The position numbers and the translations under genes were made by a program. A DNA stretch of 12,607 bases from Desulfuromonas sp. SDB. Its GTDB lineage: Bacteria > SDB-A. Location of the stretch: positions 1-12,607 of the forward strand of contig LKUE01000308.1 of NCBI GenBank assembly GCA_001412365.1, read 5' to 3'. The notes under the pieces were generated by a model. It was not told where the DNA came from and ran no database searches. It was given only the letters and a program-made list of their open reading frames with translations. This document shows, piece by piece, positions 629 through 12,607 of the stretch (position 1 is its first letter; each line of letters starts with the position of its first letter).

Positions 629-1885
629 TCACTCCAGCAGGTGAATAAATAAACCGCTTCTCAGTTTAGGTTCAAACCAGGTGGACTTGGGGGGCATTAC
701 ATTTCCGGTATCTGCAATATTCATCAGCTGCTCTATCGCCACCGGATAAAGGGCAAATGCCACTTGGAATTTTCCACTATCTACCAGTTTAACCAGCTCC
801 TTGATACCCCGGATACCTCCCACAAAATCTATACGCTGATCTTCCCGGGGATTGCCAATTCCCAGGATGGGATGCAGTAAATTATTCTGAAGAATACTTA
901 CATCCAGGGCTTCCACCGGATCCTGGGGATTCCAGCTTCCCCGCTTGGCGTCTAATCTGTAGAATTTGTGATCCAGGTACATTAAAAATTGATTGGGTTG
1001 TTGAGGCTTCATCTGTTCAGGATCATCTGGGTTGAGCTCGGTCAAACTGAATTTCTGCTGTATCTTATCCAGAAATTCCTTCTCGCTTAAATTATTTAAA
1101 TCGGTTACCACCCGGTTGTAATCCATAATCTTCATCTGATTATCTGGGAATATTACAGTTAAAAAGTAATTGTAGTGTTCTTCACCGGTATGGTGGGGAT
1201 TTTTCTGTTCCAATAATTTCTCAGCTCTGCTGGCTGCTGCGCTTCTATGATGACCATCGGCAACATATAGCAGATCAATTTCATCAAACATATTCTGAAT
1301 TTTATGAACATCATTTTCATCACAAACTTTCCATAAAGTGTGGACAATTCCGTCAACCGAAGTAAAATCATTTTCAGGCTGGTGGTTTTCAATAAAATTT
1401 GCAATGAATTGATCCAGGTTTTGTTTAGCCCGGTAGGTTAAAAAAACCGGACCGGTATTAGCTTTTAAAGACATAATATGATTGGTACGGTCATCTTCTT
1501 TTACTTTCCGGGTATGTTCATGCTTTTTAATTAAATCTTTGTCGTACTCATCAACACTAGCTGCCGCCACCAATCCTATTTGTTCATGATCACCCATAAT
1601 TTGACGGTAAAGATAAAAACATTCTTTTTCATCCTGCACCAGCCATTGATTTTGTTTGAAATCATCCAGATTTTTTCTAGCTTGGTCGTAAACTCTCTGG
1701 TCATAGAGGTCAATGGAGGGATCTAAATCAATTTCCGGTTTCACAATATGAAGGAAACTGTGGGGGTTATCATTTGCCAATTCCCTGGCTTCATCGGAAT
1801 TTAAGACATCATAAGGGGGAGATGCAACTTTTTCCGCTAGTTGTTTAGGTGGTCTCAATGCTTTAAAGGGCTTAACTATAGCCAT
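629..1885 (-). CDS. DUF1015 family protein
   Basis: This 418-residue cytosolic protein is a full-length DUF1015 member. Hallmarks are the N-terminal PFKALRPP and SPPYDV segments (6-25), KKHEHT (120-125), the ADGHHR motif (209-214), and the C-terminal segment MPPKSTWFEPKL (397-408) followed by SGLF, which typically closes the family. The DGHHR-x-A motif resembles the DG-x-RR/HHR motif of the ParB/Srx-like fold, which includes free-serine kinases such as SerK and SbnI. DUF1015 genes are often found near serine-biosynthesis genes, so a small-molecule kinase or serine-metabolism role is possible but not shown here. AGGAGG lies about 6 bases before the ATG. It is the last gene of the unit, 13 bases after the PATAN/winged-helix gene, and no ser gene is in view. 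Confidence 0.85.
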   Translation of the reverse strand: MAIVKPFKALRPPKQLAEKVASPPYDVLNSDEARELANDNPHSFLHIVKPEIDLDPSIDLYDQRVYDQARKNLDDFKQNQWLVQDEKECFYLYRQIMGDHEQIGLVAAASVDEYDKDLIKKHEHTRKVKEDDRTNHIMSLKANTGPVFLTYRAKQNLDQFIANFIENHQPENDFTSVDGIVHTLWKVCDENDVHKIQNMFDEIDLLYVADGHHRSAAASRAEKLLEQKNPHHTGEEHYNYFLTVIFPDNQMKIMDYNRVVTDLNNLSEKEFLDKIQQKFSLTELNPDDPEQMKPQQPNQFLMYLDHKFYRLDAKRGSWNPQDPVEALDVSILQNNLLHPILGIGNPREDQRIDFVGGIRGIKELVKLVDSGKFQVAFALYPVAIEQLMNIADTGNVMPPKSTWFEPKLRSGLFIHLLE

Positions 1886-1898
1886 CTATACCTCCTGC

Positions 1899-2579
1899 TT
1901 ATCGTCTGAAGAATCCTTTTTTCTTTTTCTTTCTAGTAGTTCGTTTTGCTTTAGAAGCAGTAACCGTAGCGGGTTGCTCTCCGCTTCCATCATTCTCCGG
2001 TGGTGGTTGTTCAACTTCCTCCTCCTCTTCTTCTTCAAATCCTTCGTGAACTTCAGCTAATCCGGAAACGATTAATGAGTGAACTATTTTCGCTGTTTCC
2101 AATAAGGACATCGAGGTCACCTTGGATAGTTCCCGGACTGTTCTCTCATCGTTTACCTGGGCGGCAATAATCCACTGTTCAGGATTAATTTTCACTTCTT
2201 TCACCTCAGGATCGGCAATCAGGGAAACAAATAAATTCAAATCCGGAATTTCTTTAGTAATTTCTTCCCATTCTTTTAATTTTTCCTGCAACGATGAATG
2301 AGCTTGGTCAATGGGGATGTCAATTGCTTCTTTATTAACCGTGTCGGTAGGATTAAAGGAAAATTCACCTTCCTTCAATCTGAATAGATTGAACAAAGCC
2401 ACTTCACCAGTATTATCTTCTTGATCGTTAGCGGAAACAATTGACTGATCTTTAAAGTGAATTTCTCCGGTGCAGTTTGAGGAAGAAATTTTAAGTACCC
2501 CGTTTTTCCCGCTTGTCTTTATAAATTGAAGGATTGTCTTCATCTCAAAATCTGAAAGTTTTCCACTTAATGCAGCCAT
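1899..2579 (-). CDS. PATAN (DUF4388) plus winged-helix-like protein with charged C-terminal tail
   Basis: This 226-residue cytosolic protein has three visible parts. Residues 1-80 are a PATAN/DUF4388 domain: LSDFEMKTILQFI, then GVLKISS, GEIHFKDQSIVSA, ALFNLFRLKEGEFSF. Residues about 131-178 match the winged-helix module that often follows DUF4388 (INPEQWIIAAQVNDERTVRELS, then LLETAKIVHSLIVSGL). Residues 179-226 are a low-complexity tail with an acidic run of seven Glu interrupted only by the flanks, a Pro/Gly/Ala linker, and a strongly basic end (RKKKKK followed by GFFRR). PATAN domains are protein-interaction modules known from cyanobacterial PatA/PixG-type regulators. The basic tail could bind nucleic acid or acidic membrane lipid; this is inference. 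A strong AAGGAGG overlaps the stop codon of the upstream PorV-like gene, 9 bases away. Confidence 0.8.
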   Translation of the reverse strand: MAALSGKLSDFEMKTILQFIKTSGKNGVLKISSSNCTGEIHFKDQSIVSANDQEDNTGEVALFNLFRLKEGEFSFNPTDTVNKEAIDIPIDQAHSSLQEKLKEWEEITKEIPDLNLFVSLIADPEVKEVKINPEQWIIAAQVNDERTVRELSKVTSMSLLETAKIVHSLIVSGLAEVHEGFEEEEEEEVEQPPPENDGSGEQPATVTASKAKRTTRKKKKKGFFRR

Positions 2580-2588
2580 AATCCCTCC

Positions 2589-3530
2589 TTAAAGGTTAAT
2601 ACCCATAGTAATCAGGTGAGAATTTCCTAAATCTTCACTGTAGGGCAAAAAGGCATAATCAAAGCATATTGCCTTCCAACTATAACCTAAACCTGCAGTC
2701 CAACTTTGAGTATCTGAATTAAATCTTCCTCCTGCCCTAAGTGCTAATCCGCTGGAATGGACAATCTCTGCTCCTAAATCCCAACGCATCCGGACATCAG
2801 GATATTTCCAGGCATCTAAAGCCAACGATCCGTTGAATCCCTTGTATTCAGGAAGGTTTAATGCAGTTCCAACCCTCCAGCCGGTGGGAAGTCTTGATGT
2901 TTTCTCGGAATTATTAATATAGGTGTATTTGGGACCGAAATTTTCAAGAAGTGCCCCTAAATTAACGTACTTGTTTAATTTATAATGCACTCCGAAGTCG
3001 AAGGCATAAACGGTGGTAGAATACTGAAATATCTTCTGGTGGAGAAGTTTAGTCCGAATGCCCATAGATAGATCTTTGTAAACCCGATAAGATATAGCGG
3101 CTGAACTTATAAAATCGTAAGCGCTGAAATCTCCTTCCGAGGGACCTGGACCTGATCTGAATTCCAAACCATCCACAAACAAACCGCTGAAACTTAAACC
3201 CAGGGCATAATTCGGTTTAGCTATCAGTATTCCTAAATATTCCTGATGTATTCCCTGAAAATGATTCTGATGATTAAAAATAAAACTGGTTTGATCTGCG
3301 AGCATGGAAGCGGGGTTAGTTGAGACCGATTGCTGAGGGGTCGAACCAGCGGCATAGGTACCTCCCATTGCCGCTCTCCGGGCAGATACCGGTATTTTTA
3401 AAACAGCAAAACCAATTCCCGTTTCAATTTTCTCGAGATTATCATTGTACCAATCTGTAATTCCTGCTCCATTCAATACTGCAGAACACAGGAACAGAGA
3501 GGTAATGATTATATTTATATATAGTCGCAT
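2589..3530 (-). CDS. PorV/PorQ-like outer-membrane beta-barrel protein
   Basis: The 313-residue precursor has a Sec signal peptide (residues 1 to about 22; short basic start, hydrophobic core, SAVLNGA). The N-terminal mature region carries the PorV/PorQ family signature: FAVLKIPVSARRAAMGGTYA (41-60), then STNPASML (70-77). The remainder is alternating beta-strand sequence with many aromatic and glycine residues, ending in HLITMGINL, as expected of an outer-membrane barrel. Length fits the family. In Bacteroidetes, PorV and PorQ work with the type IX secretion system, but relatives are widespread in FCB bacteria without it, so export function is not implied. AAGGAG precedes the ATG. It sits among signalling genes, suggesting that the pathway has an envelope-located target or sensor. 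Confidence 0.8.
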   Translation of the reverse strand: MRLYINIIITSLFLCSAVLNGAGITDWYNDNLEKIETGIGFAVLKIPVSARRAAMGGTYAAGSTPQQSVSTNPASMLADQTSFIFNHQNHFQGIHQEYLGILIAKPNYALGLSFSGLFVDGLEFRSGPGPSEGDFSAYDFISSAAISYRVYKDLSMGIRTKLLHQKIFQYSTTVYAFDFGVHYKLNKYVNLGALLENFGPKYTYINNSEKTSRLPTGWRVGTALNLPEYKGFNGSLALDAWKYPDVRMRWDLGAEIVHSSGLALRAGGRFNSDTQSWTAGLGYSWKAICFDYAFLPYSEDLGNSHLITMGINL

Positions 3531-3552
3531 TAATATCTCCTTAAAAAATGAA

Positions 3553-4194
3553 TTAAGTAATTAACTTCTGAGATTCTTCCTCGAATTTTTTTCTGGCATT
3601 TTCTTCATCAATATATTCACTAACTGCACTGACCAACTCTTTCAACCTGTATTTTCTAGGTTTTCCTCTATCCAGCCAGTTTTCCAGTATTCCATCAAAG
3701 TAATATTCAATCCAGGGACCGGCAATTTTTGAAGCTAAACCTTTAATTTTAGCAATTACTGCATCAATATTGCCTTCTTCGCTGGATTTGCTGTTCACCA
3801 TTTCTTCTTTTCTGGCACTTAACGATGAAACCCAATCTTCATAGTCAAAATCAGCACCCATTAAATAATCAGTTGATTTTTCAACAACTTTTATTAAATT
3901 ATTTTCATTTACATCTTTGTTGCAAATAGCCAGTAGGAAACCTTCTGAAAAGCTGTTCATGTATATTAAAGCTTCCTTGTATTTCCAGTTGACCATACCT
4001 TCCTTGATCCCCGATTTCCTGAGGGCATCCCACATTATCACCAGCTCTCTGCCCAATTCATCCATTTCCTCCAGAGAAACTGACTTGGGGATGTATTTGT
4101 GTTTAACCGAACCATTTAAAGCGTAGATAATAAATCCAATAACATTTTCAATAGACATAATGTTATCTTGTACAACTTCGACAATTCCAACCAT
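3553..4194 (-). CDS. Predicted roadblock/LC7-like domain protein with C-terminal extension
   Basis: This 213-residue cytosolic protein has no confident family match by eye. Residues about 10-110 follow a roadblock/LC7 pattern: helix, IENVIGFIIYALNGSV, long helix (LEEMDELGRELVIMWDAL), then strands around EALIYMNSFSEGFLLAI and a closing helix (NLIKVVEKSTDYLM). Residues 120-213 form a separate, highly charged helical extension with WIEYYFDGILENWLDRG and a Lys/Glu-rich end. Roadblock proteins such as MglB are GTPase-activating or scaffold partners of Ras-like GTPases, but no GTPase gene lies in this window. The start ATG is 1 base after the stop of the response regulator gene, so the two are translationally coupled. 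That tail also ends in a roadblock-like domain, so the two products may heterodimerise. Confidence 0.5.
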   Translation of the reverse strand: MVGIVEVVQDNIMSIENVIGFIIYALNGSVKHKYIPKSVSLEEMDELGRELVIMWDALRKSGIKEGMVNWKYKEALIYMNSFSEGFLLAICNKDVNENNLIKVVEKSTDYLMGADFDYEDWVSSLSARKEEMVNSKSSEEGNIDAVIAKIKGLASKIAGPWIEYYFDGILENWLDRGKPRKYRLKELVSAVSEYIDEENARKKFEEESQKLIT

Positions 4195-4195
4195 T

Positions 4196-5317
4196 TTACT
4201 TACCTAACTTTTTGACGATTTCACGGTGAGTTACATTAGCCGACAAAATGTAAACATCGTACTTCCAGGGTACTGCTCTAATCCAAAGTTCCCTCCCCTG
4301 AACATACAGCAATACTTCATCCGGTCTGGACAGTCCGAATTTCTCCCCAACTTTACATCCCCATTCATTGAGAAAGAATGCTGCCTTAACTATTGACTGG
4401 GGATTGTTCATTTTTGAAGAGTTGATTAATTTCCACTTGGCATCAACTCTTAATGCTGCGTCAATGCCCTTTATCTTGGAAATTTCTTCAATTGACAGAA
4501 GTTCATCCTGTTCAGTGGATTTTATCCCATCCTTAGCATCCAGGGCAATTTCTTCAGGGGGAGTCTTAAATAACTTCTCTCTGATTCTCAGCTGCTCTTT
4601 TTCATCCTGAACCAGAGGTAATCCCTCGTCAATTCTGCGGGCAGCTTCAAGCAGAAGCATATTTACATCCATAGTAGGTTTTTCTTCAGGAGGTTCAGTC
4701 CAGGGAGCTACATTGAAAACCCCGCTTTGCCAGGACAACATCCGGTAAAACGCCTTATCCATAAATTCATTGCCGGAACGGGCATATACAAGTTTTCCAT
4801 TTCTAATGTACATCTCTCCGGAACCTTTAAGAGATTTCACCGATAATCTTCGATTACCTCCGGCTAAAGCCATCATCTGAATTAGATCAAAGGGCGAGAT
4901 GGATTCAATTTTCGCTTCAAATTCCTTGGGGGGTTCTAAGATATTCTCAATCTTGGTAGCAAATTCATCTAGATCAAATGGTTTCTCAATGTATAAAACC
5001 GCCCCCCTCTTCAACGCCGCTCTATATGCGCTGGGAGATCCGTGAGCAGTTATCACCACAACTTTGGTTAAGGGACAATTATCCTTCATCCACCCCATCA
5101 GCTGAAAACCGTCAATATAGGGCATTTTTAAATCAGTGACAACTAAATCAAATGATTCATTTTTTAAAATCTTTATTGCTTCCCGGGGGTCCCATTGAAC
5201 ATTGATATCAAAACCTGATTCACCCAGTCTTTCTCCTACAATGGAGGCAATGTCCAATTCATCGTCCACTACCATTATCTTTTGTTTTTTCTTAGTAAAA
5301 AGTTTTTCTTCACTCAT
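4196..5317 (-). CDS. Response regulator: receiver, PATAN (DUF4388) and roadblock-like domain
   Basis: This 373-residue cytosolic protein has a canonical receiver domain at about 13-126, with Asp18/Asp19, phospho-acceptor Asp62 (VVTDLKMP), Thr90 (VITAHG) and Lys112 (YIEKPF). Residues about 131-235 form a PATAN/DUF4388 domain: ISPFDLIQMMALAGGNRRLSV, EMYIRNGKLVYAR, AFYRMLSWQSGVFNV. Residues about 276-373 read as a roadblock/LC7-like domain: IKGIDAALRVDAKWKLINSS, VKAAFFLNEWGCKVGEKFG, LWIRAVPWKYDVYILSA. There is no DNA-binding output domain, so signalling is expected to be through protein contacts. It lies 19 bases after the PATAN histidine kinase gene, its likely cognate kinase. A modest AGAGG site precedes the start. 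Receiver and PATAN calls are firm; the roadblock call is by pattern. Confidence 0.88.
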   Translation of the reverse strand: MSEEKLFTKKKQKIMVVDDELDIASIVGERLGESGFDINVQWDPREAIKILKNESFDLVVTDLKMPYIDGFQLMGWMKDNCPLTKVVVITAHGSPSAYRAALKRGAVLYIEKPFDLDEFATKIENILEPPKEFEAKIESISPFDLIQMMALAGGNRRLSVKSLKGSGEMYIRNGKLVYARSGNEFMDKAFYRMLSWQSGVFNVAPWTEPPEEKPTMDVNMLLLEAARRIDEGLPLVQDEKEQLRIREKLFKTPPEEIALDAKDGIKSTEQDELLSIEEISKIKGIDAALRVDAKWKLINSSKMNNPQSIVKAAFFLNEWGCKVGEKFGLSRPDEVLLYVQGRELWIRAVPWKYDVYILSANVTHREIVKKLGK

Positions 5318-5336
5318 TGATTACCTCTGATTGCTG

Positions 5337-6446
5337 CTAATGATTAACTTTCCCAACCGAATTCCGATCAGATAACTGCTTAGATTTAATTTCATATTGA
5401 TTCATCTTGACGGGAATTTTCAACAAAACCTCTGTTCCTTCACCTGGCTTTGAAGAAATGCTGACAGACCCTCCCATCCTTGTAATTATCGCATTCACCA
5501 CATTTAAACCCAACCCGCTGTGGTCGTTGAAACTTGAAAAAAAGGCATTGAAAATTTTGGGCTTGTCATTTTCATCAATACCGATGCCGTTATCCTCAAA
5601 AAATATCAACAAATTATCTTTCTTTTGGGTAATGTAGATGACAATATTGTTCTGGGCGTTGTCAGATAAATTACAGGCATTTTCCGCATTATCCAGCAAA
5701 TTAGACATCACCTGGATAAGCTCGTCAGGTTCTCCAAAAAACTCTAAACTTTTAACTTCAGTGGTAAAATGAAGCTGGATGTCTTCACTGAGAGAATTTC
5801 TTTGTCTATTTATCCATTCTTTAATCAAATTAATTGTATCGTAAACCGTATTTCTTCTAGTTCTGGGTTTGGACAACATCCGGGCAGAAGCGAGAAGCTT
5901 GGTAAATCTTTCCACCTGCTTGGAAATTTTTGATTCCATCTGGGAAACGTATTCTTTAACTGTATCCGGAACCTCTTTATTTTGAGCGACATGACGCTCC
6001 ACCATCTGCATACTTCCCCGGATAATGGTAAGGGGATTACCTAATTCATGAATTAAATTTGAAAAAAATTCCAGCATACTGTCGGAAACTTCGGGAAACT
6101 GAGAAGAATCCACATCAAAATTTCTTTTCCTTTCATGAGTAAAACTCTGATCCCTCAGTTTAACTAACTTTTCGCCGTCCAGAGAAACATTTCTCTGATT
6201 TTTGTCGTAATCCAGGGAAAAGTAAAAATGTTCCCAGTAATTTTTCAATATCTCCTGCAAAGCTTCCATGCCGCTGATATAGGAAAAATTTGCGTAGATT
6301 ACATCTCCATGTTCAAACACAATAACTGCTTCCCGATTTAAAACTAATTTTCCGGAGAATTCAAACTCAACTAAGAATTCCAGAAGGTCTCTGACTGTTA
6401 TTACTCCAAAGCCGCCTCGGAATAATTTGCCGTTTTTTTTATTCAT
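5337..6446 (-). CDS. Cytosolic histidine kinase with N-terminal PATAN (DUF4388) domain
   Basis: The protein has 369 residues and no transmembrane segment. Residues about 8-85 match PATAN/DUF4388 (VITVRDLLEFLVEFEFSGKL, IVFEHGDVIYANFS, EALQEILKNYWEHFYFSL). The HisKA dimerisation domain holds the phospho-acceptor His133 in LIHELGNPLTIIRG. The HATPase domain has the N box with Asn249 and Asn253 (MSNLLDNAENA), G1 DNGIGID (285-291), an F-box-like IFNAFFSSF (298-306) and G2 HSGLGLNVV (309-317). All catalytic elements are present, so it should be active. With no sensor or membrane region, input probably arrives through the PATAN domain. The start lies inside the 3' end of the preceding gene (8-base overlap) and has no clear Shine-Dalgarno, implying coupled translation. 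The response regulator follows directly. Confidence 0.9.
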   Translation of the reverse strand: MNKKNGKLFRGGFGVITVRDLLEFLVEFEFSGKLVLNREAVIVFEHGDVIYANFSYISGMEALQEILKNYWEHFYFSLDYDKNQRNVSLDGEKLVKLRDQSFTHERKRNFDVDSSQFPEVSDSMLEFFSNLIHELGNPLTIIRGSMQMVERHVAQNKEVPDTVKEYVSQMESKISKQVERFTKLLASARMLSKPRTRRNTVYDTINLIKEWINRQRNSLSEDIQLHFTTEVKSLEFFGEPDELIQVMSNLLDNAENACNLSDNAQNNIVIYITQKKDNLLIFFEDNGIGIDENDKPKIFNAFFSSFNDHSGLGLNVVNAIITRMGGSVSISSKPGEGTEVLLKIPVKMNQYEIKSKQLSDRNSVGKVNH

Positions 6447-7881
6447 GGTTTACTGTTATAACTGGTTCAGTGTCCTGTGCAGATATTTCAACATTAATAC
6501 CTGCTCCTGCAAAACTTTTTAAAATCGACATAATAATTTCAGCTTTTTCTCTAAAACCGCTGATTTTAAATATTACCTCAGGATAATAGGATAGACAACT
6601 TGATAATGGTAATAATTTCATCAATCCTCCTGCAGATAAATCATCAGCATCAAAATCAGATTCTTCAAAAATAACTTCATAATTATCCGGCAACATTGAC
6701 ACCTGGTAATAATTTTTATCGGATATGATCAAAGTAACCGGAAGATGATCGGAGTTGAACACTTTCAGGGAATCACCTTTTTCAATGCTGACTGAAAAAG
6801 CTGAGGATAACTCCGGTTGTTCGATCCACTGTCCCCCCTCAAACCTGGCTATCCTTCCGGAGATACTCTGCTGCGAACCGCAGGAGATTAAATTCAGATC
6901 AATGGATTGAACCTGATTAATTGAGTCCAGGGATACGGTGACATAACTCACTTCATTTTTTCTGACGCTTACCGGCAAGGATTTCTCCAGGAATCCCTCC
7001 GCTCCCACATATAGCGAAATAAAGCCTGAAGGCACTTCAAAAAATGTAAACTGACCCAGGGTATCACTGATACTGCTAAAGGTATCTTCTCCCCTTAATA
7101 TAATTTGCGCATTGTTCACCGGATTTCCCTGGTGTACAATCTGCCCCTGAATAGACCCGCTTCCCCTTACTGAACTTTGATCGCGGTATAACGGAATCTG
7201 CAGGGCAAAATTAACACTCCAATCATAAGGTTGCCCGGATATCCCTGAGGATAAATCTTCAGATACATCCGCCCCCAGTCTAACTTTTGTAAAAAATTCA
7301 GCATCCACATCAAAAGGCAGTCTGACTTGGGTTCCCAATCTTAAATATGAGCGGCTGTAGGAAAACAAACGGTTGTCCTGATTATAACTTTTATCAAAAC
7401 CGACATAAGTTCTGGCTGATGAATTCTGCAAAAAAACTTCCCCTCTGAGCAGCCAGCGATTATCCTCTGCTTCCCAACAATATCCTGGAGAAATCTGTAT
7501 ACCGCTGAATTCATTTTTTTGAAATTCAGCCAGCAACATTAAATTACGGGAATGCTGGAAATCCTGATACCATAATCCCAGATCGCAAAACGCTCCTCCA
7601 GGTCCCCCCAAATGTATCCCCCAGCTGTAGTTTTCAAGGGTGCTGTCAGTAAAATTATGATAATAGCCTCCTCCGTTAACCCTTAAAAAAGAATTTATTT
7701 TCCAGCTGAGGTTGGCATTGAGCAAGTAACTGCTTGATAAGCTGTCATTTAACTCCTGTTGAAAATATTCTCCGCCCCAAATTATTTTGGCTCTCCACTT
7801 TTTATCAATAAGAGGTGAGTAGAAATTAAAATTCTGATTAGAAAACTGGATTAAGACCAGCAGGGTATTTACTATCCACAT
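6439..7881 (-). CDS. Beta-rich envelope protein with carboxypeptidase-regulatory-like domain
   Basis: This 480-residue protein was not matched to a named family. The N-terminus (MWIVNTLLVLIQF) is a short hydrophobic stretch without the usual basic residues, so it is a weak export signal. Residues about 28-235 show alternating strands rich in Tyr, Trp, Phe and Gly, like an outer-membrane barrel. Residues about 243-318 match a CarboxypepD_reg/Ig-like fold: SIQGQIVHQGNPVNNAQIIL, then SDTLGQFTFFEVPSG, ending VSYVTVSL. Residues 330-480 are mixed alpha/beta and unassigned; the last 45 could form an OmpA- or secretin-like small domain, but no motif is clear. The start overlaps the upstream stop by one base (TAATG), and the 3' end overlaps the kinase gene by 8 bases. 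A role as envelope sensor or receptor is inferred from context. Confidence 0.65.
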   Translation of the reverse strand: MWIVNTLLVLIQFSNQNFNFYSPLIDKKWRAKIIWGGEYFQQELNDSLSSSYLLNANLSWKINSFLRVNGGGYYHNFTDSTLENYSWGIHLGGPGGAFCDLGLWYQDFQHSRNLMLLAEFQKNEFSGIQISPGYCWEAEDNRWLLRGEVFLQNSSARTYVGFDKSYNQDNRLFSYSRSYLRLGTQVRLPFDVDAEFFTKVRLGADVSEDLSSGISGQPYDWSVNFALQIPLYRDQSSVRGSGSIQGQIVHQGNPVNNAQIILRGEDTFSSISDTLGQFTFFEVPSGFISLYVGAEGFLEKSLPVSVRKNEVSYVTVSLDSINQVQSIDLNLISCGSQQSISGRIARFEGGQWIEQPELSSAFSVSIEKGDSLKVFNSDHLPVTLIISDKNYYQVSMLPDNYEVIFEESDFDADDLSAGGLMKLLPLSSCLSYYPEVIFKISGFREKAEIIMSILKSFAGAGINVEISAQDTEPVITVNHE

Positions 7882-8423
7882 TAACTATTTGTTGATGAAC
7901 CGGTTGAGCCAGAAGGACTCTGTTTATGTGCGCCTATATACAGTCTGCGGAATTGTTCGTTGTCAACTATAGCTTTATTTATCAAGAACAATGTTTCCAC
8001 ATTCTCATTGGCATTTTGGATGCGATCACATAATTCTTCAGCTAAAGCTTTTAAAAATTTGCCCATGGTGGAAGGATATTCTTCCATCATTGAATCTAAT
8101 AATTCTTTTCTAAATATTAAAGTAGTACACTTAGTCAGCGCTTTCACCGTAGCACTGCGGGGATGATCGGTGAGTAGAGCCATATCTCCTACAAATCCCC
8201 CCGGACCTAATTTCGCTAAAACCAGTAAAGTATCTTCCCTTTTCAGGATTACCTGTACTTCTCCGTCAATAATTATGTACATTTCATGACCGGTATTGCT
8301 TTCCTCAACTATGGTTTCCCCTTCATTAAATGTCTTTTCTTCTAATTGATTGGAGATGATATCAATTTCTGCTTCCGATAAATATTTAAAAATGGAGATA
8401 TTCTTAAGCACTTCAAATTTCAT
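7881..8423 (-). CDS. Stand-alone cyclic-nucleotide-binding domain protein
   Basis: This 180-residue cytosolic protein consists of one cNMP-binding beta-roll (about 7-120) plus helices and a Ser/Gly-rich tail (169-180). The phosphate-binding cassette is FVGDMALLTDHPRSATV (77-93). The conserved Arg89 is present, while the usual glutamate after Gly is Asp80, a conservative change seen in some family members. There is no Crp/Fnr helix-turn-helix, so this is not a transcription factor; it is a sensor or adaptor without an obvious enzymatic partner domain. The ATG follows GGGGAGG by 4 bases. It is the first protein gene of the unit, 18 bases after tRNA-Lys, and its stop overlaps the start of the next gene. 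It probably supplies a cyclic-nucleotide or second-messenger input to the kinase module. Confidence 0.85.
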   Translation of the reverse strand: MKFEVLKNISIFKYLSEAEIDIISNQLEEKTFNEGETIVEESNTGHEMYIIIDGEVQVILKREDTLLVLAKLGPGGFVGDMALLTDHPRSATVKALTKCTTLIFRKELLDSMMEEYPSTMGKFLKALAEELCDRIQNANENVETLFLINKAIVDNEQFRRLYIGAHKQSPSGSTGSSTNS

Positions 8424-8441
8424 ATTTCCTCCCCTGCATTA

Positions 8442-8514
8442 TGGGTCGCGTGGGAATCGAACCCACGACCCCCTGCTTAAAAGGCAGGTGCTCTACCTAT
8501 TGAGCTAGCGACCC
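8442..8514 (-). tRNA. tRNA-Lys (anticodon TTT)
   Basis: A 73-nt cloverleaf on the minus strand. The 7-bp acceptor stem is GGGTCGC with GCGACCC; the D arm is GCTC...GAGC with GG in the loop. The anticodon stem is CCTGC/GCAGG around loop CTTTTAA, giving anticodon TTT. The T arm is GTGGG/CCCAC around TTCGATT, and the discriminator is A. CCA is not encoded. It has its own good promoter and is followed after 18 bases by a protein-coding gene with no terminator between. Confidence 0.97.
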
Positions 8515-8526
8515 ATTTTAAGTGTG

Positions 8527-8562: not shown

Positions 8563-8689
8563 TTAAAATGTATGAAAAGAAAGATTATATTCAAGTAATC
8601 CAGTTTATTCAACAATTTTTTAGAAAATAATAGTTTTTTTAAACCTTTGTCCGTTTTATTTCGTCATAACCATAAACAAAGGAGGAAAA

Positions 8690-9223
8690 ATGAAAAACTT
8701 GTTTAAAAAAATTAATAGTCTGAAAGCTGCTTTTCTGGTTGGATTATTTCTTGCCACTGCTGCCTATGCTCAACCTGCTCATGACCATTACCAGTCCCGG
8801 GGCGGACCGGACTCTCCCCCAGGACCGCCCCAGGGCAGATTTTTAGACCGGTTAGATCTTTCCGAGCAACAAAAAGAACAGGTGATGATCTTGATGGAAT
8901 ATCATCATGAACAAATGGAAATTTACCGTGAAAAAATCAGAGAAATTCATGAGGATTTAAAAGAACTACTTGCTGACCCTGAAGATCCCCAGGCAATTAA
9001 GTTAAAAATTATGGATATGGCTCAACTGGAAGGAGAGATGAAATCTCTCCGGGTTGATTTAATTTTCGATATTATGGAGCTTTTAACTGAAGATCAACTA
9101 GATAAACTGCCCGACAATTTTTTAATGAGGTTTTTACAACCCCAAGGTCCTCAACAGCACCAGAGCCCCCAACATCATGACCAAAGACCTCCCCAGGATC
9201 ATAATCACCGTCCTGATTTTTAA
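8690..9223 (+). CDS. Spy/CpxP-like periplasmic protein with LTxxQ motifs and His-rich tail
   Basis: The 177-residue precursor has a clear Sec signal peptide (KNLFKK start, hydrophobic core, AYA cleavage at about 27/28). The mature protein is helical with the two family motifs: LSEQQ (57-61) at the first helix and LTEDQ (132-136) near the last. Histidines cluster at H31-H33, H72-H73 and through the C-terminal tail (HHDQ, HNHRPDF), with Pro/Gln-rich linkers. Spy/CpxP/ZraP relatives are periplasmic chaperones or metal and envelope-stress modulators; the His tail favours metal binding. AAAGGAGG (8678-8685) sits 4 bases before ATG. It is a single-gene unit divergent from the tRNA operon and followed by its own terminator. 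No clear promoter was recognised in 8563-8677. Confidence 0.8.
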   Translation: MKNLFKKINSLKAAFLVGLFLATAAYAQPAHDHYQSRGGPDSPPGPPQGRFLDRLDLSEQQKEQVMILMEYHHEQMEIYREKIREIHEDLKELLADPEDPQAIKLKIMDMAQLEGEMKSLRVDLIFDIMELLTEDQLDKLPDNFLMRFLQPQGPQQHQSPQHHDQRPPQDHNHRPDF

Positions 9224-9241
9224 AAAATTTAAACAGAATAG

Positions 9242-9270
9242 AAAAAGGAGTTACCCAGTAACTCCTTTTT
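9242..9270 (+). terminator. Intrinsic terminator after the Spy-like gene
   Basis: Arms aaaaaggagttac (9242-9254) and gtaactccttttt (9258-9270) are a perfect 13-bp inverted repeat around a cca loop, followed by further Ts (tattttttc). It lies 18 bases after the Spy-like stop. The A-rich left arm makes it usable from the opposite side as well, so it may also terminate the lipoprotein transcript. Confidence 0.9.
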
Positions 9271-9374
9271 TATTTTTTCATGATTAAATAAAGTTTTTAT
9301 GCTGGTTTTGCCTTGTTGCTGACACCAGGTATCAGACGCTCGGTCAACTGCCACTTAATGTTCTGGTTGGCTTT

Positions 9375-10069: not shown

Positions 10070-10345
10070 ATGACCACCCAAATGAAGACTTATTACTGAA
10101 AAATTGAAATTTTTCAGTCTAAAAAAGCAAACATTGCTAGAGCTAGCTGAATTCTTAAAAAATGTATCAGAAGCCTGCCGGATCTCCGGATGTTCCCGAC
10201 AACATTTTTATGACATCAAAAAGGCATATGAACAGGATGGACTTGAGGGATTAAAAGAGAAGAGCAGGAGAAAACCTTGTTTTAAGAATAGGGTTGCTCC
10301 AGAGGTAGAGGAAGCGATAGTGCAGATGGCTTATGAATATCCAGC
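10070..10345 (+). pseudogene. IS481-family transposase, 5' fragment (frameshifted, interrupted)
   Basis: ATG 10070 follows AAGGAGG and opens as MTTQMKTYY, then hits TGA at once. The continuing protein (LKFFSLKKQTLLELAEFL, then SEACRISGCSRQHFYDIKKAY) is one frame away from about 10104. A small indel near 10097-10104 therefore separates start and body. The body is the N-terminal helix-turn-helix region of an IS481-type transposase, including QDGLEGLKEKSRR. Coding sequence stops at AYEYPA (10345), where an IS256-family element is inserted. An apparent 88-residue reading frame from 10104 to 10370 ends in residues supplied by the IS256 end and is not a real gene. Confidence 0.85.
10338..10345 (+). 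repeat. Left copy of 8-bp target-site duplication (tatccagc)
   Basis: tatccagc is identical to 11877-11884 and directly abuts the left IS256 end. Eight-base duplications are typical of IS256-family insertion. Confidence 0.85.
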
Positions 10346-10369
10346 GGCACATGTCAAGAAAGTTGTGTA
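10346..10369 (+). repeat. Left terminal inverted repeat of the IS256 element
   Basis: Starts ggcacatgtc and ends gttgtgta (10362-10369). It matches the inverted right end over the terminal GG and the inner GTTGTGTA block, with a one-base length difference and several mismatches between them. Confidence 0.7.
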
Positions 10370-10404
10370 AGAAGATGAAGGATTCATACCGAGAACAGAC
10401 AAAA

Positions 10405-11742
10405 TTACCCGGCCATTTTATCAGCTAAAGAGTTCATTTCTTCCAATGCGGAATTAACATCGACATCTGAATTTGTAGAATAATTGATAAATTTTCCTCT
10501 ATGAATTTGCAGCAATTCATATTCATTCGCTTTAAAATAAGGATGCACCTTTTTCCATTTGCCTTTTTTCAGGCGATCCAGCTGCAAGATAATATTAATA
10601 CCCAGTATTTCTTCACTTTGAAAGAATCCATTAAGTCGGTTTCTAATGGTTTCAATTCTGCTGTTAAAATTTTCAGATACATTGGTGGTGTAGATGTATT
10701 TTCTAAGAGGTTCGGGGTATTTGAGAAAATTCAGATAATGGCATCTTTTTGTCCAGATCAGAGAAGAAAAATGTTTGTAATTATCTTTATAAGCAAGGAT
10801 TAGTTTTTCAAACTTTTCCAGGGCATGTTCATAATTACCAAGAGATTTTATGCTGTCAAAATTATTTTTAAATTCTTTTCCATCTTGTTTAGACATGTTT
10901 TTGGTTATGTTTCTTTTAAAATGAGTTATACAGAGCTGATGATCGGTATAGGGAAACATCTCTGAGATCGCGTCAATTAGTCCCGGGAAATCATCAGAGA
11001 CAATCAGAGATATGCGTTTTAAGCCCCTGGAGATCAAATCATTGAAGGTTTTAAGCCAATTGCCTTTGTTTTCTACACCGGTATGGATATAGAAGCCGTA
11101 GAGGTTTTTATTCCAGTTAATATCAATGCCAATAACCGTATAGATAGTAATGGTTTTTACTTTTCTTTGTTCTTTGTCCCTCATTTCAGTTCTGTATCCG
11201 TCAATATAGGCTACAAAAACATCAGCAGGTAATTCTTTTTGCACAAAGCAATAATACCTGTTTTTTAATTCTTCAATGATATTTTCAACTTCACTTTTAG
11301 AATATCCAAGACCCATTTCTTGCAACAATATCCTCAGTTTGGCAGGAGAATATCCATTGACAATCAAAGCTTCCAGCAAATTAGTATAACTCTGTTCACT
11401 TCTTTTATACTTCTCGGGCAATATAAAAGGTCGGAAGTTTAATTCTCTGGTCCTGGGTACATCCAATGATAATTTCCCCAGTGCGGTATCCAAATTTCTG
11501 GGGTAGAAGCCATGACCGAAATCAGGATTGTTCTTCAAAAATATCTCTCTATCCGAGATCATCATCTGGTTAATCAGATCCTGGAGCATGGACTTAAGAT
11601 TGGTTGAAACAAAGTTCTTAATTTTTACTTCATCCCCCATAGTTTCTTTGATAGAATTATCAATAGCTTCTTTTGCAATTTGTTCAACAAGAGATTTTTT
11701 CATGATGTCATTACTCCAGTTTAAAGGTTTTAAAAAATCCAT
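10405..11742 (-). CDS. IS256/Mutator-family transposase
   Basis: The 445-residue protein is full length. It shows the family's DDE layout: Asp181 (VAYIDGYRTEMRD), Asp250 (IVSDDFPGL), the CX2H motif at Cys271/His274 (QLCITHFKRN), and Glu357 in TTNVSENFNSRI. The N-terminal region contains the helical DNA-binding part with LEALIVNGYSPAKLR (123-137). No frameshift or premature stop is seen, so the element may be active. The first ATG (11740-11742) has only a weak AGGA about 12 bases upstream. Met14 (ATG 11701-11703) has GGAG about 10 bases ahead and may be the true start, giving 432 residues. Transcription runs opposite to the IS481 gene it interrupts. Confidence 0.93.
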   Translation of the reverse strand: MDFLKPLNWSNDIMKKSLVEQIAKEAIDNSIKETMGDEVKIKNFVSTNLKSMLQDLINQMMISDREIFLKNNPDFGHGFYPRNLDTALGKLSLDVPRTRELNFRPFILPEKYKRSEQSYTNLLEALIVNGYSPAKLRILLQEMGLGYSKSEVENIIEELKNRYYCFVQKELPADVFVAYIDGYRTEMRDKEQRKVKTITIYTVIGIDINWNKNLYGFYIHTGVENKGNWLKTFNDLISRGLKRISLIVSDDFPGLIDAISEMFPYTDHQLCITHFKRNITKNMSKQDGKEFKNNFDSIKSLGNYEHALEKFEKLILAYKDNYKHFSSLIWTKRCHYLNFLKYPEPLRKYIYTTNVSENFNSRIETIRNRLNGFFQSEEILGINIILQLDRLKKGKWKKVHPYFKANEYELLQIHRGKFINYSTNSDVDVNSALEEMNSLADKMAG

Positions 11743-11774
11743 GGTTATGATTAAAATCCTGGTTTAATGGCTGT

Positions 11775-11802
11775 CCCATCCGGAGGTCGCCCTCCGGATG
11801 GG
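11775..11802. repeat. GC-rich hairpin in the IS256 leader
   Basis: Arms cccatccggagg (11775-11786) and cctccggatggg (11791-11802) form a perfect 12-bp stem with a 4-base tcgc loop. It lies between the right end of the IS and the transposase start, about 33 bases upstream of the first ATG in the transposase direction. No T-run follows on either strand. A likely role is a barrier to expression from read-through transcripts, as leader structures do in several other ISs; this is inference. Confidence 0.7.
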
Positions 11803-11853
11803 ATATAACAATACTTCCACTCCATTATCTTTTAACAAATTAATCCAACTCCA

Positions 11854-11876
11854 TACACAACATTTATCTTAATCCC
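11854..11876 (-). repeat. Right terminal inverted repeat of the IS256 element
   Basis: Read on the minus strand it begins GGGATTAAGAT and ends GTTGTGTA at 11854-11861, mirroring the left end. It abuts the right tatccagc copy directly. Confidence 0.7.
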
Positions 11877-11884
11877 TATCCAGC
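11877..11884 (+). repeat. Right copy of 8-bp target-site duplication (tatccagc)
   Basis: Identical to 10338-10345. It is followed by ctatgggcag, which continues the interrupted IS481 codons (PAYGQ). Confidence 0.85.
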
Positions 11885-12607
11885 CTATGGGCAGATCAGG
11901 GCATCTAATGAGTAGGAGTGAGGTCAGTATGGCTCAGGCATGATCTGGAGACCTTTAAGAAGCGCCTGACGTCGTTAGAGGAGAAAGCATCCAAAGAAGG
12001 TATCGTTTTTACCAAGGAACAATTGATAGCTTTGGAAATGAAGAAAAAAGAAAAGGAATCTGACCCAAATATCATTGAAACGGAACATCCCGGTTATCTA
12101 ATTTCCCAGGATACATTTTATGTCGGCTATATCAAAGGAGTGGGCAGAATTTATCAGCAGACGGTTGTTGATACCTATGCCCAGATTGCCTTTGCCAAAG
12201 TCTATACCGCCAAAGTGCCTATCACTGCCGCTGATATCCTCAATGACCGGGTACTGCCATTCTTTAACAATCATGAAGTCCCCATACTGAGAGTATTAAC
12301 TGACCGAGGCACTGAATACTGTGGCAGATTGGACAAGCATCCTTACCAGATATTCTTACAGTTCTATGATATTGAACATACTAAAACCAGGGCAAGAAGA
12401 CCACAATCAAATGGCATATGCGAAGCTTTCCACAAGACTATATTGAATGAATTTTACAAAGTAGCATTCCGGAAAAAAGTATATTCCAACCTTGAACATC
12501 TACAGGAAGATTTTGACAACTGGCTAAATTACTATAACAATGATCGAACCCACCAGGGTAAGAGATGTGATGGAAAGACTCCTATGGATACTTTCCTGGA
12601 TAATCTG
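11877..12607 (+). pseudogene. IS481-family transposase, 3' fragment with intact DDE domain (runs off window)
   Basis: Codons 11877-11912 read YPAYGQIRASNE in the frame of the 5' fragment, then TAG. From 11915 a different frame stays open to the window edge, starting GVRSVWLRHDLETFKKRL. About ten to twelve codons normally found between these blocks (the KKG-x-SPG region) are missing, so a short deletion of non-triplet length caused the shift. The catalytic core is complete: Asp codon 12110-12112 (SQDTFYVG), Asp 12302-12304 (LTDRGTEYCG), Glu 12422-12424 (PQSNGICEAFHKTIL). The family C-terminal motif NDRTHQGKRCDGKTP is also present. The protein end lies beyond the window. The gene is dead because of the deletion, the upstream frameshift and the IS256 insertion. 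Confidence 0.88.

Follow-up and report, generated by a model that had tools for sequence, protein, structure and literature searches.

The 12,607-nucleotide window analyzed here, which is the entire contig C308 (LKUE01000308.1) of Desulfuromonas sp. SDB (genome of 3.1 Mb in 433 contigs), carries a minus-strand operon in which a soluble histidine kinase, a response regulator with a PATAN (DUF4388) domain, an orphan protein of 213 amino acids (aa) and a second PATAN protein with a winged-helix-like C-terminus (PATAN-wH) are encoded alongside a cyclic-nucleotide-binding protein and two envelope proteins. We tentatively read this operon, with a probability of roughly 0.42, as a two-component switch that would act through protein contacts on polarity or pilus function, together with envelope partners. 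The literature searched contains no description of this combination in one conserved operon, of its two seemingly phylum-specific protein regions, or of the kinase-loss signature set out below. The original prediction, a model's reading of the sequence, had likewise proposed an undescribed signaling operon tied to the envelope, and this much is borne out by a gene order kept in all four genomes sampled.

First, the arrangement of the block is strongly conserved. Seven consecutive minus-strand open reading frames, separated by junctions of -8 to +22 bp, some of them overlapping, lie where they had been placed, and the block exceeds these seven by a tRNA-Lys 17 bp upstream and a DUF1015 gene 13 bp downstream, giving the full order tRNA-Lys, cyclic-nucleotide-binding protein, CarboxypepD_reg barrel, kinase, response regulator, 213-aa protein, PorV-family protein, PATAN-wH and DUF1015. 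This order is identical in the four genomes available from the window's little-sampled phylum (G000-G003; one family, two genera), and thus across both genera, despite between-genus identities of roughly 30-74% for the block's proteins and only about 30-60% for most of the signaling and envelope proteins. The genes are therefore not scattered in relatives, as might have told against a functional unit, and their conserved order in all four genomes argues for a cluster that is more than chance. The DUF1015 protein (418 aa; 629..1885 (-); PF06245, E = 6.2e-113), the last of the block, is counted in because it obeys the same junction rule and because its gene adjoins that of PATAN-wH in all four genomes; since the gap ahead of it is 57-70 bp in the other genus, it may be under its own promoter there. 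On DUF4388 and DUF1015, the literature searched yields almost nothing.

Second, the kinase and the regulator carry the domains expected of a two-component pair. The kinase (369 aa; 5337..6446 (-)) has HisKA (E = 5.9e-8) and HATPase_c (1.3e-22) domains, and the response regulator (373 aa; 4196..5317 (-)) combines a receiver with the conserved Asp and Lys (PF00072, 1.3e-24), a PATAN domain (PF14332, 5e-17) and a further C-terminal domain; Response_reg and DUF4388 are its only matches, and no DNA-binding domain was found on it. The orphan that follows (213 aa; 3553..4194 (-)) matches no family, its N-terminal half being possibly roadblock-like in strand and helix order, as judged by eye, and its C-terminal half helical. 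Both the regulator's C-terminus and the orphan look phylum-specific in profile searches of 386 genomes: the former was found in four genomes, all from the window's phylum, full-length matches to the latter were confined to that phylum, and the two profiles together gave a single partial match elsewhere (E = 1.8e-4).

Two sets of domain calls in the original prediction fared less well. Of the three PATAN proteins it had seen, the response regulator and PATAN-wH (226 aa; 1899..2579 (-); PF14332, 1.4e-15) stand, passing the curated cut-off of 25 bits with 62.5 and 57.8 bits, respectively, and the third is marginal: the N-terminus of the kinase scores 20.3 bits against that cut-off (E = 5.7e-4) and is matched in one of three orthologues. 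Profile-profile comparison of this region with the N-terminus of PATAN-wH gives E = 2e-4, and another such comparison gives 2.8e-3 for the kinase; judged from sequence, the kinase likely carries a degenerate PATAN domain. The two roadblock-like proteins failed at every sequence test. Neither Robl_LC7 nor any other significant Pfam match was found for the regulator's C-terminus or the 213-aa protein in any orthologue, PF03259 matches one gene per genome, namely the separate MglB, and against a profile built from 17 MglB relatives the candidates score like column-shuffled controls, in a comparison that lacks a positive control of similar divergence. The strand and helix order of both regions is compatible with a roadblock fold on a by-eye reading. 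AlphaFold single-sequence models of the orphan and the regulator (pLDDT 51 and 38) are too poor for use, although the orphan's helical C-terminus reaches about 50-90, and a structure search with the orphan model returned helical-bundle noise only. The idea that repeated PATAN and roadblock domains assemble one complex depends on these roadblock calls, which the sequence does not support, and on a third PATAN that is marginal.

Third, one of the four genomes provides a natural kinase deletion. In G001 the position of the kinase is taken by some 200 bp that contain no reading frame, and no kinase orthologue was found elsewhere in the genome at E <= 1e-25, at a stated completeness of 100%. In relative-rate tests with G000 as outgroup, covering 17 genes or domains in four genomes with one kinase loss, the receiver is faster in G001 (21 v 6 changes, p = 0.006; 19 v 5, p = 0.007), as is the 213-aa protein (40 v 11, p = 6e-5; 38 v 8, p = 9e-6), including its C-terminal half (23 v 4, p = 3e-4). 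No acceleration in G001 was detected for the regulator's PATAN domain, PATAN-wH, the cyclic-nucleotide-binding protein, the PorV-family and CarboxypepD_reg proteins, MglA or MglB. The G001 receiver is 66-68% identical to those of its own genus, from which the receiver of the other genus is less distant (74%), and it retains the phosphorylation residues D18, D19, D62, T90 and K112. This pattern, in which only the receiver and the 213-aa protein accelerated in the kinase-less genome, speaks for kinase, receiver and orphan as one module, separable from the other parts of the operon. We infer that these three form a contact set that was relaxed or re-wired after the loss, the PATAN and envelope parts having kept their role; on the putative phosphotransfer from kinase to regulator, the same change in receiver rate bears indirectly.

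Fourth, the relatives of PATAN-wH hint at a polarity function. Its profile finds relatives in 55 of the 386 genomes, including the four of the window's phylum. Among 53 neighborhoods at loci outside the window's operon, 11, from eight families, have an MglA or MglB homologue, or a small GTPase picked up by the MglA profile, no more than two genes away, where a rough estimate puts the chance expectation below one; this agrees with published neighborhoods in which PATAN proteins lie near MglA/MglB genes (Wuichet & Sogaard-Andersen, 2014; PMC4316618). In each of the four genomes, a dnaX-ybaB-recR locus apart from the operon encodes a single MglB next to MglA (the window genome's MglA being on another contig), and each also has PilB/PilT-type ATPases, so that the MglA-like GTPase and pilus genes that the original prediction proposed to look for are indeed present elsewhere. 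Neighborhoods of MglA/MglB with PATAN proteins were reportedly noted by Makarova in 2006 as well. The C-terminal region of PATAN-wH gives a weak MarR match (E = 0.0022), and all four genomes share, at its end (window 1899-1990), an acidic linker and a basic tail that closes with KKGFFR and may serve in docking.

Related arrangements occur at other loci. A second PATAN-wH gene (L065:6854-9321, on G000:C274) is followed by two uncharacterized genes (of 242 and 282 aa) and, after them, by genes for a TonB-dependent receptor and for ExbB/ExbD/TonB-like proteins, which makes it a parallel PATAN-envelope cluster. At L064:4639-9040 and L066:2769-4277, receiver-PATAN proteins with an extra C-terminal domain lie next to relatives of that domain that stand alone as 128-aa proteins, a layout resembling that of the window's regulator and its small partner.

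The remaining operon proteins supply a putative second input and the envelope components, and their family assignments, like those of the kinase and receiver domains, hold as originally predicted. The cyclic-nucleotide-binding protein (180 aa; 7881..8423 (-); PF00027, E = 2.7e-20, 72.6 bits against a cut-off of 27.5) is without a helix-turn-helix and is 71-74% identical in the other genus; in all four genomes it keeps PRSATV and has GD where many cyclic-nucleotide sensors carry GE. The genomes contain 22-31 class III cyclase-domain matches each, which looks many for genomes of 2-3 Mb; many of these lie in open frames of more than 1,200 aa. A 24,484-aa open frame in G003 proved to be a run of N and not a gene. 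The beta-rich protein with a CarboxypepD_reg domain (480 aa; 6439..7881 (-); PF13620, E = 7.8e-9, matched in 4/4 orthologues) presumably resides in the outer membrane, its barrel and signal peptide being by-eye readings of the sequence; an OmpA-like C-terminus, also suspected by eye, gave no match. The second envelope protein (313 aa; 2589..3530 (-)) belongs to the PorV/PorQ family of outer-membrane proteins (NF033709, 131.4 bits against a cut-off of 90, E = 5.5e-38).

How might these parts work together? The soluble kinase would phosphorylate the receiver, with the 213-aa orphan docking on either of the two through its helical half. Phosphorylation would alter the binding partner of the regulator's PATAN domain, and PATAN-wH, as adaptor, would pass the signal on to two targets whose genes lie at other sites in the genome, the polarity GTPase MglA/MglB and the ATPases of type IV pili. 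In the same process two envelope components, the PorV-family protein and the CarboxypepD_reg barrel, would be positioned or loaded, and the cyclic-nucleotide-binding protein would add an input from the many class III cyclases. A non-transcriptional output, as first proposed, remains plausible because the regulator shows no domain for DNA binding and because other PATAN proteins adjoin MglA/MglB or bind PilB. In cyanobacteria PATAN regulators act by binding PilB (PMC9090330, PMC7690835, PMC10519157), and SgmX, a regulator of pili in Myxococcus, co-occurs with PATAN proteins (PMC11580455). A much bolder version, to which we give little credence, is a phylum-specific complex in which the kinase, the receiver-PATAN regulator and a new adaptor family, represented by the 213-aa protein with its helical half as the docking part, all act on PATAN-wH as a hub, which links MglA to PorV-type proteins and so places envelope export at a chosen pole.

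Several observations weigh against a switch for polarity or pili. No GTPase or pilus gene lies within the operon, and the link to MglA and PilB is drawn by analogy and from the neighborhoods of relatives. The rate evidence comes from just four genomes and one loss, and after correction for 17 tests only the 213-aa result survives alone, the receiver result being a prior expectation. The rest of the operon outlives the loss of the kinase, which is hence dispensable for output, and the winged helix of PATAN-wH could bind DNA. Finally, in two genera of one other, unrelated family (L122:6355-8326 and L123:7654-9646), a PorV-family gene, one small gene and PATAN-wH occur together, an independent linkage in which PorV, not MglA, is the neighbor.

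This last linkage, the two envelope proteins within the operon and the presence of SprA in 4/4 genomes would suit a switch that governs type IX secretion (T9SS) or an outer-membrane cargo path in the manner of PorX/PorY of Bacteroidota, the regulator contacting the export machinery with the PorV-family and CarboxypepD_reg proteins as partners; PorX, a regulator, binds the motor subunit PorL (PMC5005315). We consider such a target unlikely, if the likeliest of the alternatives, as the operon's PorV is one of 6-7 such genes per genome and falls below the T9SS equivalog cut-offs (NF033710 for PorV, 38.1/250 bits; NF033711 for PorQ, 69.9/220 bits), and the regulator has no PglZ domain; polarity or pilus function is the more likely target. 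It is more doubtful that only the kinase, the regulator and the orphan form a functional system, set in a loose neighborhood of genes for envelope and housekeeping functions that follow the promoter of a tRNA-Lys. The tRNA and DUF1015 within the block, the normal rates of the other genes after kinase loss and the sampling of just two genera agree with this. Two things do not: gene order is the same in both genera and its junctions are tight or overlapping, despite the divergence of most signaling and envelope genes, and PorV and PATAN-wH are again close together in another family. Least probable of the alternatives is transcriptional control, in which the regulator and orphan act on PATAN-wH and its winged helix binds DNA to regulate envelope genes, as the weak MarR-like match and the basic tail would allow; winged helices serve as protein-binding domains too, and the PATAN proteins so far studied work by contacts (PMC9090330, PMC10519157). 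The original statement that the system has no DNA-binding output cannot be relied on, given the winged-helix-like C-terminus of PATAN-wH.

The unit opens with the tRNA-Lys (anticodon TTT; 8441..8515 (-); ARAGORN and Rfam RF00005, 76.4 bits), which has the same orientation as the cyclic-nucleotide-binding gene, the ribosome-binding site of the latter directly following the tRNA. In G001 and G003 its position and strand are the same, and the G002 contig stops there. A promoter-like site upstream of it (TTGAAT-17-TATAAT; 8584..8612 (-)) is a weak lead, as shuffled sequences yield about as many of these sites as the region does. Transcription would probably start ahead of the tRNA, and operon expression would then track growth. 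Divergent from the operon lies a CpxP/Spy-like Metal_resist gene (window 8690-9223), which is also found in G001 (L047:6381-6905), where genes for an ECF sigma factor and for an anti-sigma-like protein with a zinc finger come before it. A 14-bp hairpin with A/T runs (window 9241-9271) is likely a bidirectional terminator between convergent genes, and window 10104-12607 holds a Mutator-family transposase gene whose insertion apparently split another transposase gene, of the rve type and with a helix-turn-helix part. A HepT-like gene (98-451) lies beyond the other end of the operon.

Outside cyanobacteria the partners of PATAN proteins are hardly known, although these proteins are common and frequently have polarity GTPases as neighbors. 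The conserved unit described here brings a regulator and an adaptor with PATAN domains together with a dedicated kinase and outer-membrane proteins of the PorV type, and G001 is a natural kinase deletion, so that the connection partners of PATAN-wH can now be tested within a small candidate set. The component kinds are already known, as is the placement of PATAN next to MglA/MglB. The closest counterparts are the cyanobacterial PATAN-REC regulators (PixE, PixG, PilG and LsiR, which act on PilB1): both combine a receiver with PATAN and have no DNA-binding domain, and the protein-contact output known there is proposed here. In the window's regulator, however, the receiver comes first, followed by PATAN and then a third, phylum-specific domain, and its partner is a soluble histidine kinase, encoded with it in an envelope operon, rather than a chemotaxis array, contact with PilB being suggested by analogy only. 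The window's PATAN-wH is of the same type as those beside MglA/MglB in other phyla, but here it belongs to a two-component/PorV operon, MglAB being encoded at the separate dnaX-ybaB-recR locus. With PorX/PorY the operon shares a two-component pair, a SprA-bearing genome and, as proposed, an export-linked output that acts partly by protein contact, although its regulator has different domains without the PglZ effector and its PorV is not the T9SS equivalog. The actinobacterial conservons (kinase, MglB-type roadblock, DUF and GTPase) resemble it as operons of a kinase with small adaptor proteins, whereas the window's operon is without a GTPase or a detectable roadblock and has a response regulator.

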